Part shown: positions 8,078 to 13,868 of the stretch, piece after piece
Numbering within the stretch: the stretch's first letter is position 1
Layout: every line of letters starts with the position of its first letter
Assembly (NCBI GenBank): GCA_003151495.1
Contig: PLXR01000155.1
Span: forward strand, 1-52,531
DNA: 52,531 nt
Source of the DNA: Opitutaceae bacterium
Lineage (GTDB): Bacteria; Verrucomicrobiota; Verrucomicrobiia; Opitutales; Opitutaceae
Direction: 5' to 3'
Made by a program: the position numbers and the translations under genes
The notes under the pieces: model-generated
The model's input: only the letters and a program-made list of their open reading frames with translations
Databases searched by the model: none
Told to the model about the DNA's origin: nothing

Positions 8078-9172
8078 ATGGCCAGGATCCTCTGCCTTCT
8101 TCTCCTCTCGGGCCTGGCCGCCCGCGCCGCCGCGGACCCCGTCCCCGCGATGACGGCCGTGCCCGCCAACGACCCGAGGATAGCGTACATGGGGCGGATC
8201 GAGCTCACCGAGAAGGCGGCCCGCATGGGCTACCCGGGCGTCACGGTCCGCTTTGCGTTCCGCGGCCCCGCCCCGTCCGTAAAGTTGACCGGCGACTCGC
8301 CGAACTGCTATTTCAACCTCTCGTGCAACGGGTGGGACCCGGTCCTCATCCACCTGAAGGAGGGGGGCAACGAAATCGCGCTTCCGACGGGCCCTGCGCC
8401 CGCGGGGGGATGGGTCGTCGAACTCGTGAGGAGGACCGAGTCCTGGATGGGCACGGCTTCCTTTGACGGCGTCCTCCTGCCCCCCGGGTGCGAGCTCCTT
8501 GCGCCGCCGGCATTTCCCGCCCGCAAGCTCATGTTCATCGGCGACTCCCTCACGTGCGGGGAATACAACGAGCGCTTCCCGCCGGAGAACGACTCGACGG
8601 CGCGCACGACGAACGCGCAGCGCTCGTACGGCATGCTCCTGGCCAGGTGGCTCGGGGCGCAGGTCCACCTCGTCAGCTACGGAGGCAGGGGCATCACCCG
8701 GGACTGGTCCGGCAAGGCAGACACGAACACGCTTCCGGTGTTTTTCCCACGCGCGCTCCCGGACACCCCTGGCTCGGAGTGGGACCACTCCCTCTACCAG
8801 CCCGACGTCGTCGTCATCAACGACGGCACGGACTTTGACGGCGGCCCCCTGGACCCGGAGAAATTCATTGCCGCATATGCGGCGTTCGTCGGCCAGGTCC
8901 GCTCCGCCTATCCCAGGGCCTATATCCTGCTGACGGAAAGCGGATTCCAATCGGACGGCTCCGACGGTAGGTCCAGGGCGCCCCGCGACCAGCTCCTCAT
9001 GACCATCGAGCGGGTGGCCGAGGAGCGGCGCATCGCGGGGGACCTCCGAGTGAAGGTTGCGCGCACCGGGTTCTTCCCCGGCACCCCGACCAACCCCCAC
9101 CTGGTCGCCTTCCAGCACGAGCAGATTGCGCTCGCCCTGCTGGGGCCCATTCGCGACGCGGCGGGGTGGTAG
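8078..9172 (+). CDS. SGNH-family carbohydrate esterase (CE2-like), secreted
   Basis: A 364-residue protein with a signal peptide (MARILCLLLLSGLAARAAA). Its two-part architecture resembles carbohydrate esterase family 2: an N-terminal beta-sandwich (about 30-145) and a C-terminal SGNH hydrolase fold (about 148-364). Block I is KLMFIGDSLTCGEYN with nucleophile Ser157, and block II is the Gly in SYGGRGI. Two positions are unusual. Where relatives usually have GTND, this protein reads INDGTDFDGG, so the oxyanion-hole Asn appears replaced by Asp. Where relatives have an Asp-x-His-Pro type block, it reads TNPHLVAF, keeping the His but not the Asp. CE2 enzymes remove acetyl groups from hemicellulosic sugars; that role is inferred. 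It is the last gene of the sugar module. Confidence 0.82.
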   Translation: MARILCLLLLSGLAARAAADPVPAMTAVPANDPRIAYMGRIELTEKAARMGYPGVTVRFAFRGPAPSVKLTGDSPNCYFNLSCNGWDPVLIHLKEGGNEIALPTGPAPAGGWVVELVRRTESWMGTASFDGVLLPPGCELLAPPAFPARKLMFIGDSLTCGEYNERFPPENDSTARTTNAQRSYGMLLARWLGAQVHLVSYGGRGITRDWSGKADTNTLPVFFPRALPDTPGSEWDHSLYQPDVVVINDGTDFDGGPLDPEKFIAAYAAFVGQVRSAYPRAYILLTESGFQSDGSDGRSRAPRDQLLMTIERVAEERRIAGDLRVKVARTGFFPGTPTNPHLVAFQHEQIALALLGPIRDAAGW

Positions 9173-9229: not shown

Positions 9230-10384
9230 CTAGGCCCGGCCCCCGGGAAGCGCCCGCTCCATGTCGGCGACCAGGTCGCCCACGTCCTCGAGGCCGACGG
9301 ACATGCGGACGAGGTCCGGCGGCGTCGGGCTCTGGGGACCCTCGATGCTCGCCCGGTGCTCGACAAGGCTCTCGACCCCGCCGAGGGACGTGGCCCTCTT
9401 CCAGACCCGCAGCTTCCCGATGAACCCGAGCGCGGCCGGGCCTCCGCCCCTCACCCTGACGGAAAGCATGCCGCCAAATCCCCCCCGCATCTGCCGCAGG
9501 GCGATCCCGTGCCCCGGGAACCCCTCGAGGCCCGGGTAGAGGACGGCCTCGATCCCCGGATGCCCCGAGAAGTGCTCGGCGATCGCCTGGGCGGCCCGGC
9601 TCTGCGCCTCGACCCTCACGAAGAGCGTCCTCATCCCCCTCAGGAGGAGCCATGCCTCGAACGGGCCAAGCACGGTCCCCGCCTGCGAGCGCACGGTCTT
9701 GACCGCCTGCCAGTGCTCGTTCAGCGCAGCCGTGGTCACGGTCCCCGCGACGACGTCCGAGTGGCCGTTCAGGTACTTCGTCGCCGAGTGCATGACCAGG
9801 TCCGCCCCGAGGGCGATCGGCTGGGTGTGCACGGGCGTCGCGAATGTGGAGTCGACGGCCAGGAGGGCGCCCGCCCCGTGGGCCACCGCGGAAAGGGCCG
9901 CGATGTCGCTCACGACGAGCGTGGGGTTGGCGGGCGTCTCCACCCAGACGAGCTTCGTCTCGCCGGGCCGCACGCGGGCGGCGACCGCGGCGGGGTCGGT
10001 CATGTCCACCGCCTCGACCCTCAGGCCCCAGGCGGTGGCCCAGCCGGCGAGCCAGTTGCGGAAGGCCCAGTAGAGGACCCTGGGGACGAGCACGTGGTCT
10101 CCAGGCCGCAGGGCGAGGAAGACGGCGGTCGCCGCGCTCATGCCCGAGCTGAAGACGGCGGTCGCGGCGCCCCCCTCAAGCCGGGTGAGGAGCGCCTCGG
10201 GCTGTTCGTACCCGGGATTGTCGGCGCGCGAGTAGAGGCGCCCCGAGACGAGCTTGTTGTCGGCGTCGCGCTCGTAGGTGGTCGAGGGGTGGATCGGCGG
10301 CACGATGGCCCCTGTGCCCGGGTCGACGTACCCGAGCGCCTGTGCGGCCGCGGTGGCGGGCTTGACGGGATGCTCGGGGTTCAT
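9230..10384 (-). CDS. Cys/Met-metabolism PLP enzyme (cystathionine gamma-synthase/lyase or sulfhydrylase type)
   Basis: A 384-residue fold-type I PLP enzyme of the transsulfuration family (Cys_Met_Meta_PP). The PLP lysine is Lys203 in HSATKYLNGHSD. The PLP-pyridine Asp is Asp178 in AVDSTFATP, the phosphate-binding turn is SSGMSAATA (79-87), and YSRADNP (51-57) is the partner-subunit motif. Family members act as cystathionine gamma-synthase, cystathionine gamma-lyase, methionine gamma-lyase or homoserine-ester sulfhydrylase, and these cannot be separated by eye. It lies 14 bp downstream of the cupin gene, so RLP, cupin and this gene form one transcription unit. That favours a role in handling methanethiol or homoserine esters (inference). 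The active-site segment VLYWAFRNW replaces the more common Tyr-Gly-Gly-Thr loop, which may mark a distinct subgroup. Confidence 0.88.
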   Translation of the reverse strand: MNPEHPVKPATAAAQALGYVDPGTGAIVPPIHPSTTYERDADNKLVSGRLYSRADNPGYEQPEALLTRLEGGAATAVFSSGMSAATAVFLALRPGDHVLVPRVLYWAFRNWLAGWATAWGLRVEAVDMTDPAAVAARVRPGETKLVWVETPANPTLVVSDIAALSAVAHGAGALLAVDSTFATPVHTQPIALGADLVMHSATKYLNGHSDVVAGTVTTAALNEHWQAVKTVRSQAGTVLGPFEAWLLLRGMRTLFVRVEAQSRAAQAIAEHFSGHPGIEAVLYPGLEGFPGHGIALRQMRGGFGGMLSVRVRGGGPAALGFIGKLRVWKRATSLGGVESLVEHRASIEGPQSPTPPDLVRMSVGLEDVGDLVADMERALPGGRA

Positions 10385-10398
10385 GGATGCGTGCCCGC

Positions 10399-10851
10399 CT
10401 AGGTCCTGATGAAGGCCCCTACGTTCCCGTCCGACCCCATCTCGCGGAGGTCCTCCGGCGTGGGCATGCGCGGCTTGTCGCGCTCGCTCCTCACCAGGCA
10501 GAGGAACCCGAGCGGCTCGTCGCCGGTCGCCCGGAACTGGTGCCAGGCCTGCGGGGGCACGCGGACCAGGTCGTGGGTCCTGAGGTCCAGGATCTCGCTT
10601 CCCACGAGGGCCCGCCCCGCGCCCCGGATGACCATCACCGAGTGCGCGTGGTCGTGGCGCTCCAGGGTCGAGTGCCCGCCCGGGGCGATCTCAAAGTACC
10701 TCAGCTGGGCGCCGAAGTGCTTCCCGTCGTCGAAGAGGACCTGCCTGCTGATGCTCTTGAAATGGCTTCCGGGGTCCTCCTTGTAGGCGAGGACCGGCAC
10801 GCCCTCCCACCGGAAGGGATCCGTCCGGGCGATGTGGGTCTTCTGGCTCAA
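10399..10851 (-). CDS. Small cupin; candidate methylthioxylulose-5-phosphate methylsulfurylase
   Basis: A 150-residue single-domain cupin. I place the start at TTG 10851, whose bases overlap the TGA stop of the upstream RLP gene (TTGA); the frame is open further upstream, but that part is shadow of the RLP gene. Cupin motif 1 is RYFEIAPGGHSTLERHDHAHSV, with candidate metal ligands His66, His68 and His70. Motif 2 is VPPQAWHQFRATGDEPLGFLCLV, with His104. In Rhodospirillum rubrum a cupin encoded close to the RLP gene converts 1-methylthio-xylulose 5-phosphate to 1-deoxyxylulose 5-phosphate and methanethiol. The translational coupling to an RLP and the neighbouring sulfhydrylases make the same role the leading hypothesis here, but it is inference. 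Other small metal-dependent isomerases share this fold. Confidence 0.8.
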   Translation of the reverse strand: MSQKTHIARTDPFRWEGVPVLAYKEDPGSHFKSISRQVLFDDGKHFGAQLRYFEIAPGGHSTLERHDHAHSVMVIRGAGRALVGSEILDLRTHDLVRVPPQAWHQFRATGDEPLGFLCLVRSERDKPRMPTPEDLREMGSDGNVGAFIRT

Positions 10852-11960
10852 GGGGGGTAGGGGAAGGAGTGTGCCTCCTCGACGAACCGGCGGCACCGGG
10901 AGAGAAGCGTGGCCCCGTCGGGCGCGCCTAGCAAGCTGCCGCCGACCAGGAGGAGGGTGTCGGCGCCGTAGAACCCCAGGACGTCCCGGACGTTCTCCAC
11001 CCTCATCCCCCCGGCCGGCGCCGGGAAGGCGGGGGCAATCGCGGAGTCGGGCGACCGGAGCGCGCGCGCGATCGCCGCGCACTCGGCCCGGTCGTAGCTG
11101 AAGCGCCCGCCGAAGTTGGGGTAGATGACGGCATCGGCGCCGTAGAGCGGGAACAGCTTCCCCAGGAGGGCGGAGGGCGCGATCCGGAGCGAGCCGCCAA
11201 GGGCGGGATGCGCAAGGATCGGCATCCCGAGGCCTCCCGCCAGCTCATGGAGGAGGGGAAGCCCGATCACCATCGGGGACACCATCACGGCCCTGGCCCC
11301 GAGCTCGCCCGCCAGCCGGGCCTGCGAGATGACCGTCCGGGGCGAGCCCGTCAGGTTCGGGACGTAGATCGTGCGGCGGCCCGTCCCCTGCGCGGCCCTC
11401 TCCGTCGCCTCGAGGCAGGCGCGGACGCGTTCCGCGAAGGGGCAGAAGGGATGGTCGGCGAGCCCGTGGTCGTCCTTTACGATGTCCAGGCCCGAGGCCG
11501 CAAGGGTCCCGCAGAGAGACGCGCTCTCTGCGACCGAGAGTCCGACGGGCTTCAAGACGGAGGCGGTGAGGGCCCGCCCATGGACATCCGCGACCTTCCT
11601 CATCCCGGAGATCCCGAAGCGGGGTCCGCCCATGGCGGCAGCCAGTCCCGCGGGCACCCGGACGTCCAGGAGCTCGATCTCGGGCTGGAGCGAGCAGTTT
11701 CCAAAGAGGACGTTGAGGAGCTGGGCCGGGTCCCCGGCCGCCGAGAGGGCCGGCTGCGCGAGGGTGACGCGGTAGCACCCGGGTCCCTCCTCCTCGGTCG
11801 AAAGGACGCTCCCGACCATGTGCTCCAGGGCGAAGGCGGACCGGAGCGCCTCGCGAGGCAGCTCGACCGTCTGCTCCAGGAGCAGCGCCTCGACCCGGGC
11901 GCGGATCGCCGCCGCAGGCGCTCGCACCCGGTAGACCGCCTCGATGGGTTCCTCAGTCAT
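10848..11960 (-). CDS. RuBisCO-like protein (form IV)
   Basis: A 370-residue RuBisCO large-subunit homologue, shorter than true RbcL (about 460-480). The N-terminal domain covers about 1-125 and the TIM barrel about 126-370. Active-site landmarks: Lys137 in TASVLKPVGL (RbcL Lys175), Lys162 in DIVKDDHG (carbamylated Lys201), Asp164 (Asp203), His251 in ILAHPALGG, and the phosphate-binding PAGGM (316-319) and GGSLL (340-344). The position of metal-binding Glu204 is His165 here. The loop-6 region reads YPNFGGRFSYD, without the Lys334 needed for CO2 fixation, so it is not a carboxylase. Form-IV members include 2,3-diketo-5-methylthiopentyl-1-P enolase, the R. rubrum 5-methylthioribulose-1-P isomerase and apiose-pathway decarboxylases. 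The coupled cupin favours the R. rubrum type of chemistry. First gene of the minus-strand operon. Confidence 0.9.
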   Translation of the reverse strand: MTEEPIEAVYRVRAPAAAIRARVEALLLEQTVELPREALRSAFALEHMVGSVLSTEEEGPGCYRVTLAQPALSAAGDPAQLLNVLFGNCSLQPEIELLDVRVPAGLAAAMGGPRFGISGMRKVADVHGRALTASVLKPVGLSVAESASLCGTLAASGLDIVKDDHGLADHPFCPFAERVRACLEATERAAQGTGRRTIYVPNLTGSPRTVISQARLAGELGARAVMVSPMVIGLPLLHELAGGLGMPILAHPALGGSLRIAPSALLGKLFPLYGADAVIYPNFGGRFSYDRAECAAIARALRSPDSAIAPAFPAPAGGMRVENVRDVLGFYGADTLLLVGGSLLGAPDGATLLSRCRRFVEEAHSFPYPP

Positions 11961-12063
11961 GTCCGGCCACGCTACACGGGGCGGCCCCTTCCGGAAGCAG
12001 AAAGGGCGGTTATGACTGAATCTTCCTTTGCATTGTCCGGATAAGATTATTGCCTATGGGAGT
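11961..12063. promoter_or_regulatory. Divergent intergenic region between RLP operon and sulfhydrylase gene
   Basis: About 100 bp separate the RLP start (minus) from the sulfhydrylase start (plus), so both promoters must lie here or overlap the coding ends. The segment is clearly more AT-rich than its flanks around 12015-12055 and contains TAAGAT at 12042-12047, a possible -10 element for the plus strand. I found no riboswitch-like structure and no convincing operator palindrome. Confidence 0.4.
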
Positions 12064-13365
12064 GTGAGTAAGGAAGCCGACCCCCGCCGATTCGGATTCG
12101 AGACGCGCATGGTCCATGCCGGGCACATCCCGGATGCGGTCACCGGGGCCCGCGCGGCCCCGATCTACCAGACGACCTCCTTCGTCTTCGAGGACGCGGA
12201 GCAGGCGGCCCAGCTCTTCGAGCTCAAGCAGTACGGCAACATCTACACCCGGATCAGCAACCCCACGACCGCGGTCTTCGAGGAGCGCATGGCCTCCCTC
12301 GAGGGCGCGACCGGGGCCCTTGCGACGGCGAGCGGCATGGCCGCGCAGCTGGTGACGTTCCTCACCCTCCTTCAGCCCGGGGACGAGATCGTGGCGTCGT
12401 CCCAGCTCTACGGGGGGTCGATCACGCAGCTCGTCCACACCCTCAGGAAGTTCTCGATTGGGGTGCATTTCGTCGACCCGTCGCGGGTTGAGGACTGGGA
12501 GCGGGCGATCACGCCCCGGACCCGCGCCCTCTACGGGGAGACGATCGGCAACCCCCGGGGCGCCGTCCTCGACATCGAGCGCGTCGCCCAGGTCGCCTCC
12601 GCTCACGGGGTCCCGCTCATCGTCGACAGCACGATGGCGACGCCCGCCCTCTCGAGGCCCATCGAGCACGGGGCGACAATCGTCGTCCATTCGGCGACCA
12701 AGTTCATCGGGGGCCACGGCACCGCGATCGGCGGCGTCCTGCTCGACTCCGGGAAATTCGACTTCAGCGGATACCCGAGCATCGCCGCGCCGTCCCCCGC
12801 CTACCACGACCTCCGGTTCTTCGACACCTTCGGCCACTACGGCTTCCTCATGAAGGCGCGGGCGGAGACGCTGCGGGACACGGGCGCCTGCCTGTCGCCC
12901 TTCAACTCGTTCCTCCTCATCCAGGGCCTGGAGACGCTCTCCCTGCGGATGGAGCGCCAGTCCGCATCGGCCCTGCGCGTCGCCCGGCACCTTGAGGCGC
13001 ACCCGGCGGTCGCCTGGGTCGCCTATGCGGGCCTGCCGAGCCATCCCGACCACTCCCTCGCCCTCAAGTACCTACCCACGGGCGCGGGGGCCGTCTTCTC
13101 GTTCGGCCTCAAGGCGGGCTCCGCGGCGCAGGGGCGCCAGAAGGGCAGGGCGTTCATCGAGGGCCTCGAGCTATTCTCGCACCTCGCCAACATCGGCGAC
13201 GTGAGGAGCCTCGTCATCCATCCGGCCTCCACGACCCACCAGCAGCTCTCCGACGATGAGCTCGCCAGGGGAGGGGTGGGCCCCGAGCTCATACGGCTTT
13301 CGATCGGACTTGAAAACGTGGAGGACCTGCTATGGGACCTGGACCAGGCGCTTCCTGCGCCGTAA
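12064..13365 (+). CDS. metY: O-acetylhomoserine sulfhydrylase (MetY-type)
   Basis: A 433-residue transsulfuration-family PLP enzyme of the long MetY type, which makes homocysteine from O-acetylhomoserine and sulfide, or methionine when methanethiol is the thiol. Evidence: [31 protein letters not shown] at the N-terminus, YTRISNPT (61-68), the turn [18 protein letters not shown] with the PLP Asp188, and [12 protein letters not shown] with PLP Lys213. The insert after it ([23 protein letters not shown]) and [17 protein letters not shown] near the C-terminus are typical of MetY. I chose GTG 12064; a TTG at 12028 would add 12 residues. It is divergent from the RLP-cupin operon and overlaps the next gene by 34 nt. 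In R. rubrum such an enzyme recaptures methanethiol released by the RLP/cupin pathway. Confidence 0.9.
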
Positions 13366-13868
13366 CGCTCAACTCATCGCTCACGCCGGAAGAGCAGCGG
13401 GCCTACCAGGACCCGAGGGTGATCCAGCGGCTGCTGCGCGAGGCGCGCACGATCGCGGTGGTGGGGCTCTCGAGCGACCCGCAGCGCGCCAGCTGGTTCG
13501 TGGCGAGCTACCTGAAGAAGGAGGGCTACACGGTCATCCCCGTCAACCCCAAGGCCGGCGAGATCCTCGGCGAGAAGGCCTATCCCGACCTGGCCAGCAT
13601 CCCGGTCCCGGTCGACATGGTCGACGTGTTCCGACCGGCCTCGGAATGCCTCTCCGTGGCGAGGCAGGCGGCTGCGATCGGCGCCAAGGCGCTCTGGCTC
13701 CAGCTAAGGCTCATCAACCTTGAGGCCGCGGCGCTCGCCGCGGGCGCCGGGATGGCGGTCGTGATGGACCGATGCGTGAAGATGGAGCACGCCCGCTACT
13801 TCGGGAGGCTCCACTGGGCCGGGATGAACACGGAGATCATATCCGCCCGCAAGGCGCGCCTCGCCTGA
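13332..13868 (+). CDS. CoA-binding domain protein (YccU-like)
   Basis: A 178-residue protein with a Rossmann-type CoA-binding domain as in succinyl-CoA synthetase alpha and E. coli YccU. Motifs: RTIAVVGLSSDPQRASWFVASYLKKEGYTVIPVNP (about 39-75), VDMVDVFRPAS, KALWLQLRLIN, and MDRCVKMEHARYFG near the C-terminus. The frame opens at ATG 13332, inside the end of metY (34-nt overlap), which implies translational coupling. Conserved YccU-like sequence begins only around residue 17 (LTPEEQRAYQD). I recall this family being encoded next to metY in other genomes, but I cannot confirm that here. The biochemical role is unknown; a regulatory or CoA-sensing function in Met/Cys metabolism is speculation. 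Confidence 0.87.
   Translation: MGPGPGASCAVTLNSSLTPEEQRAYQDPRVIQRLLREARTIAVVGLSSDPQRASWFVASYLKKEGYTVIPVNPKAGEILGEKAYPDLASIPVPVDMVDVFRPASECLSVARQAAAIGAKALWLQLRLINLEAAALAAGAGMAVVMDRCVKMEHARYFGRLHWAGMNTEIISARKARLA

Follow-up and report, generated by a model that had tools for sequence, protein, structure and literature searches.

A compact gene cluster encoding a RubisCO-like protein (RLP), a cupin and a pyridoxal phosphate (PLP)-dependent enzyme, together with a divergent MetY-type sulfhydrylase, was found at positions 9230-13365 of an Opitutaceae contig and, judging from sequence, very probably serves a 5'-methylthioadenosine (MTA)-isoprenoid shunt. The contig (C13, 52,531 bases, referred to in full as the window) belongs to a 4.1 Mb genome in 165 contigs that is 80.5% complete. 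Support for the pathway reading comes from sequence, gene order and genome content, from which we infer each of its reactions. A sequence-only reading had previously proposed that the locus encodes the same route as in Rhodospirillum rubrum, and this is upheld here by the RLP clade, the cupin match, the presence of mtnA, dxr and MetY, and a search for mtnD that returned nothing in 12 genomes. That the features of the locus exceed chance was confirmed by family matches, by a gene order kept in 4/4 Opitutaceae loci and by purifying selection (dN/dS about 0.10-0.34 over 11 locus-gene comparisons with loci L014, L016 and L077, the MetY-L016 pair being left out and the L016 RLP, split across two frames, entering with its first part).

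On the minus strand, the RLP gene (10848-11960, 370 aa) is followed by the cupin gene (10399-10851) and the PLP enzyme gene (9230-10384). The RLP stop codon TGA (10850-10848) overlaps the cupin start codon TTG (10851-10849) as TTGA, and this TTG was accepted as the right start because the corresponding residue is encoded by ATG in L014, L016 and L077 (MSEKTH, MSQKTH and MSKKTH). A gap of 14 bp (10385-10398) separates the cupin stop from the ATG of the PLP gene. On the plus strand, MetY (12064-13365) most likely starts at GTG 12064 rather than TTG 12028, as its predicted protein is matched by L077 and L016 from VSK onward and not upstream of it (L014 differs there), which sets the divergent gap between RLP and MetY at 103 bp. 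The translational coupling, the 14 bp spacing and the divergent MetY at about 100 bp noted from sequence alone were thus all present. The predicted divergent promoter region (11961-12063) contains two intergenic blocks, TTTCTGCTTCC and CGTGTAGCGT, that are identical in 4/4 aligned Opitutaceae loci; no Rfam family was found at gathering score in the window.

The window RLP matches the RuBisCO_large family (PF00016) and falls below the cut-off of the RuBisCO III model. Its closest solved structure is 3qfw (44% identity), which we take to be a Rhodopseudomonas palustris protein and which groups inside the Rhodopseudomonas rows of the RLP tree. RLP loci were collected by scanning for window-like motifs, with 80 of 145 confirmed stretches kept, so counts such as 39/80 describe a window-biased sample and not a census. 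The tree (96 rows, built by a quick method, with SH-aLRT, an approximate likelihood ratio test, as its only support measure) placed the window RLP in a 44-row clade (SH-aLRT 99) that also contains every Rhodopseudomonas row, seven in number (3qfw plus six loci), RLP1 among them, and within it the four Opitutaceae rows form their own group (SH-aLRT 99). A branch of SH-aLRT 99 separates this clade from 14 outgroup rows, made up of the 11 RLPs of the order and three MtnW-type entries from the PDB, some of them fragments. The window RLP therefore groups with Rhodopseudomonas RLP1 and outside the MtnW (YkrW) and OiaX-like rows, in agreement with the isomerase role proposed from sequence alone, in a tree whose rows do not include R. 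rubrum Rru_A1998. K137 and the motif K162-D163-D164-H165 lie among the columns that are at least 95% conserved over 43 clade rows, and the window RLP reads KDDH where MtnW rows read KDDE. It is accordingly designated a DeepYkr-type RLP and predicted 5-methylthioribulose-1-phosphate 1,3-isomerase; a passage of PMC5893883 reports 1,3-isomerization by R. palustris RLP1.

The cupin (PF07883) is predicted to act as a 1-methylthioxylulose-5-phosphate methylsulfurylase. Its closest solved relative, 3jzv, is Rru_A2000 itself (E 9.2e-48, identical at 72/136 aligned residues), which bears out the proposed kinship to the R. rubrum methylsulfurylase, and 21 residues, including E64, H66, H68, H70, H104 and C118, are invariant in 41/41 aligned cupins. 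In the part of PMC4958253 consulted, Rru_A2000 is named as the 1-methylthioxylulose-5-phosphate sulfurylase and Rru_A1998 as the RLP. A cupin adjoins or is fused to the RLP in 39/80 loci, namely in 30/42 of the window clade and 9/38 outside it. One Nitrospirota metagenome-assembled genome (MAG) carries a natural RLP-cupin fusion as a single 577-residue frame (L054:9863-11593), and this encoding of both proteins as one frame supports the view that RLP and cupin work in sequence.

MetY scores 584.3 bits against TIGR01326 (cut-off 495.1) and is 87% and 90% identical to its counterparts in L014 and L077, respectively. It is predicted from sequence to supply the acylhomoserine sulfhydrylase needed to capture methanethiol. 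Directly 3' of MetY lies a gene for a CoA-binding protein (13332-13868, plus strand, PF13380, start uncertain), which also adjoins MetY in L014 and L077.

The assignment of the PLP enzyme (PF01053, Cys/Met metabolism family) is less specific. Of 45 NCBIfam models matched, 25 were listed, and it stays under the cut-off of each of these, including the best cystathionine gamma-synthase model (375.2 bits vs 513) and the methionine gamma-lyase models (303.9 vs 549.7 and 308.3 vs 666). The YGG of the loop in characterized relatives is replaced by YWA or YWG in 8/9 proteins compared, the window's included, which together form a divergent "YW" subfamily; a 44% identical relative in L153 is without this motif. 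The gene is present in 4/4 Opitutaceae loci and in no other of the 80 RLP loci, L046 being the only other locus with PLP-family members (different ones) near its RLP. We rejected the idea that the enzyme is specific to the shunt, since a 65% homolog occurs in G154, a genome with no match to the window RLP, where it sits in an apparent pyrimidine-catabolism operon (gene names by sequence reading, with no family scan). Homologs at 64% identity adjoin MetQ/NlpA transport genes in Rhodobacter and Cereibacter; the Azospirillum homolog does not. Of the two sulfhydrylase-type enzymes claimed in the sequence-only reading, MetY therefore stands and the PLP enzyme is not accepted, because it lies below the model cut-offs and its 64-65% homologs occur in other gene settings. 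Its putative role most likely lies in sulfur-amino-acid chemistry downstream of the cupin, possibly at the methanethiol-release step. On its other side the PLP gene is adjoined by a carbohydrate esterase family 2 (CE2)/GDSL esterase gene (8078-9172), which is also found there in L016; no match above 120 bits was obtained in L014 or L077.

The arrangement of PLP enzyme, cupin and RLP with divergent MetY is shared by the window, L014, L016 and L077, with L016 ending inside MetY. Against L014, collinear matches with gaps cover the window from about 1.4 to 17.7 kb; against L077 they reach 14.3 kb. These closest relatives by RLP and synteny, from which the window takes its lineage label, are Opitutaceae (Verrucomicrobiota) MAGs, two of the three with palsa and bog in their titles, and were drawn from a collection separate from the 177 genomes sampled for the order. 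Among the latter, a window-type RLP was found in one, namely the window's own genome. The other RLPs of the order (in 11/177 genomes besides the own) cluster together in the tree.

Partner genes were searched for in 12 genomes (the own, three other Opitutaceae and eight others with a window-type RLP). In the own genome, mtnA (404.4 bits, cut-off 279) lies on contig C98 and dxr (411.4 bits, cut-off 315.7) on C156, and the two genes were recovered in 10/12 and 11/12 genomes, respectively. Matches to dxs were obtained in 12/12 genomes, of which 10, the own included, exceed the cut-off; MTA phosphorylase (mtnP)-type matches were obtained in 11/12, six of them over the cut-off, with the own genome contributing a fragment on C87. 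Thus mtnA and dxr were located as expected and mtnP as a fragment only, and the description of the route as gathered in one place has to be abandoned. At L101:1483-3675 and G177:C18:11208-12353, genes resembling uppS and cdsA (names by sequence reading) run divergently from the MTA phosphorylase-like gene; its distance to dxr is about 1.8 kb in G177, and the two genes are equally close in G179.

No match to mtnD, the acireductone dioxygenase gene, was found in any of the 12 genomes. Three class II aldolase matches were detected in the own genome (on C86, C98 and C55), none of which is MtnB. The C86 protein was dismissed as MtnB or Ald2, being AraD, next to an AraA-like gene and in G177 also an AraB-like gene (names by sequence reading), and so was the C55 protein, a fusion of rhamnulose-1-phosphate aldolase and short-chain dehydrogenase (SDR) (952.4 bits, cut-off 567.75). 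The expected lack of mtnBCD was accordingly borne out for mtnD and, among the own aldolases, for mtnB, in an 80.5% complete genome in which mtnC was not searched for.

Following this reasoning, MTA produced elsewhere would be phosphorolyzed by an MtnP-type enzyme and the product isomerized by MtnA to 5-methylthioribulose-1-phosphate, both genes lying outside the window. The window RLP would convert this compound into 1-methylthioxylulose-5-phosphate, and the coupled cupin would transfer the methylthio group to a thiol (the use of which we infer), releasing 1-deoxyxylulose-5-phosphate (DXP). DXP would then enter the methylerythritol phosphate pathway via Dxr, alongside the normal Dxs supply, while the methylthio group would be freed as methanethiol and added by the divergent MetY to an acylhomoserine, giving methionine. 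The proposal that sulfur salvage feeds the DXP pathway is thus supported with one qualification: as dxs is present, DXP from the shunt would be a side input.

Several observations weigh against this assignment. The genome is incomplete, and its mtnP-like gene is a 66.7-bit fragment cut by the contig start and by an internal NN; its relatives in G177 and G179 are full length, yet at 157 and 167 bits they too remain under the TIGR01694 cut-off of 274.85. A speE match over the cut-off was obtained in 0/12 genomes, so this search pointed to no source of MTA, although R. palustris fails it too. GCS2 was found in 0/4 Opitutaceae genomes, in a search that left out gshA (PF04262), gshB and other glutathione or thiol enzymes, and in 4/12 genomes overall, including R. 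palustris and Methylocapsa. A passage of PMC5893883 describes glutathione as mediating the known cupin reaction, and the thiol step may therefore differ from the known system. The expected RLP-cupin linkage also holds for part of the window clade only, 12/42 loci showing no linked cupin; three of these have less than 1 kb of downstream flank, and seven of the other nine are from Eremiobacterota. The Eremiobacterota RLPs in question (L023, L027, L028, L031, L035, L037 and L050) belong to the cupin clade and have no linked cupin although flanking sequence is available; L024, from the same group, has one. Finally, an aldolase-SDR fusion encoded next to mtnA may compete for the same substrate.

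This last point leads to a rival explanation, in which the fusion would cleave most of the 5-methylthioribulose-1-phosphate in a one-protein variant of the dihydroxyacetone phosphate (DHAP) shunt, leaving the RLP and cupin a minor or conditional role. The C98 protein (L141:6548-9663, directly upstream of mtnA) is a bifunctional aldolase/SDR matching PRK08324.2-4 at 1003 bits (cut-off 831), and it is probably not a rhamnose enzyme because it reaches 407.8 bits against the rhamnulose-1-phosphate aldolase model (cut-off 567.75) while the C55 protein passes. The pair with mtnA recurs in G177, G179 and 7/17 other mtnA-bearing genomes of the order (within 1.5 kb flanks), and both kinds of shunt operate in R. 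palustris according to a passage of PMC5893883. However, 5-methylthioribulose-1-phosphate is a candidate substrate of the fusion only, both routes could operate side by side, and purifying selection acts on the RLP and the cupin. We consider this rival rather unlikely. In its own right, the mtnA-linked fusion may constitute a one-protein DHAP shunt acting on 5-modified ribulose-1-phosphates.

It is also unlikely that the locus serves mainly for methanethiol disposal or DXP supply, with a general, sulfide-using MetY placed divergently by chance and little methionine salvaged. The collinearity of MetY with its CoA-binding neighbor in the window, L014 and L077 would fit such a general role, as would the frequent export of methanethiol stressed in part of PMC6302742, but the divergent arrangement and the intergenic blocks have been kept in 4/4 loci. 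That the RLP is instead an MtnW-type enolase or an OiaX-type decarboxylase of the apiose pathway can be dismissed with near certainty. MtnW-type models do score it, at 191.6 and 151.9 bits, but the respective cut-offs are 409 and 513.6, and the OiaX model gives 74.5 bits against a cut-off of 700. The OiaX-like RLPs of the order (five of the eleven were scanned, at 487-524 bits, likewise under 700) form a separate clade, the MtnW rows likewise lie across the branch of SH-aLRT 99, and the KDDH motif and the lack of mtnD matches in the 12 genomes point the same way.

When compared to known systems, the assigned MTA-isoprenoid shunt most resembles that of R. rubrum and R. palustris (Rru_A1998/Rru_A2000; RLP1/cupin). 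Common to them are a DeepYkr-type RLP followed by an Rru_A2000-type cupin and the presence of MtnA, Dxr and MetY, with an MtnP-type gene that is a fragment in the own genome and with no mtnD found. In contrast, MetY is divergent at the Opitutaceae locus, whose operon includes an additional PLP gene (the R. rubrum sulfhydrylases being Rru_A0774/0784 in the consulted part of PMC4958253), GCS2 was not found, and mtnA is paired with an aldolase-SDR fusion. The DHAP shunt (MtnP or MtnN and MtnK, MtnA, Ald2) shares MtnA and its product, but ends in DHAP and an aldehyde via a class II aldolase (passage of PMC10986504), whereas the window genes encode an RLP and a cupin. Bacillus-type methionine salvage also employs an RLP after MtnA (MtnW/YkrW), although from a different clade, and needs the MtnD that was found in 0/12 genomes here.

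Part of PMC5893883 puts the number of species that have both RLP and cupin at 25 or more, among them 13 proteobacteria, nine Firmicutes and two Deinococcus, and both enzymes were found in 5/181 Dxs-lacking candidate species according to a passage of PMC10663253. An RLP is listed for a verrucomicrobial methanotroph MAG in PMC8170126, without assignment to the shunt in the passage concerned. No description of the shunt in Opitutaceae or Verrucomicrobiota was found in literature covered mostly by titles and abstract openings, in line with the earlier remark that it was not known from this lineage. The route is already known; the compact gene cluster in the Opitutaceae lineage looks new.

A sister clade of cupin-less RLPs was also observed, comprising 27 loci (L042, L043, L048, L049, L057-L060, L062, L064-L066, L069, L070, L072, L074, L076, L078, L079, L081-L086, L088 and L090). 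By clustering of neighbors, a transketolase, split or fused, lies beside the RLP in 18/27 loci, with mtnA in 11/27, an MtnK-like gene in 10/27, and a sugar ABC (ATP-binding cassette) ATPase, permease and binding protein in 10/27, 9/27 and 8/27, respectively; family scans covered L062, and L085 for transketolase. L062:270-10215, from a Thermotogae MAG, encodes on one strand an ABC transporter, MtnK (492 bits against a cut-off of 275), MtnA, the N- and C-terminal parts of a transketolase, the RLP and a sugar-binding regulator. This suggests a route in which a 5-modified ribose would be converted, through the RLP, to a 1-modified xylulose-5-phosphate and then undergo cleavage dependent on thiamine diphosphate. 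No description of such an RLP-transketolase route was found in a limited search of partly available sources, and it would widen the known roles of RubisCO-like proteins.

Returning to the Opitutaceae locus, we regard as improbable a joint reading in which a glutathione-free shunt (the cupin using a different small thiol, e.g., cysteine, as methylthio acceptor, and the YW-type PLP enzyme resolving the adduct) is combined with an RLP that accepts 5-deoxyribulose-1-phosphate. If true, the PLP enzyme would fill the methanethiol-release step, for which R. rubrum has only proposals. The same MtnP and MtnA would also convert 5'-deoxyadenosine into 5-deoxyribulose-1-phosphate, from which 1,3-isomerization by the RLP would give DXP directly, and waste of radical SAM (S-adenosylmethionine) chemistry would feed isoprenoids with the cupin unneeded. 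Overall, the organized locus makes two steps testable, namely the methylthio-accepting thiol where GCS2 was not found and the release of methanethiol, and the predicted shunt would extend oxygen-independent methionine salvage feeding isoprenoids to a verrucomicrobial group represented here by MAGs only.

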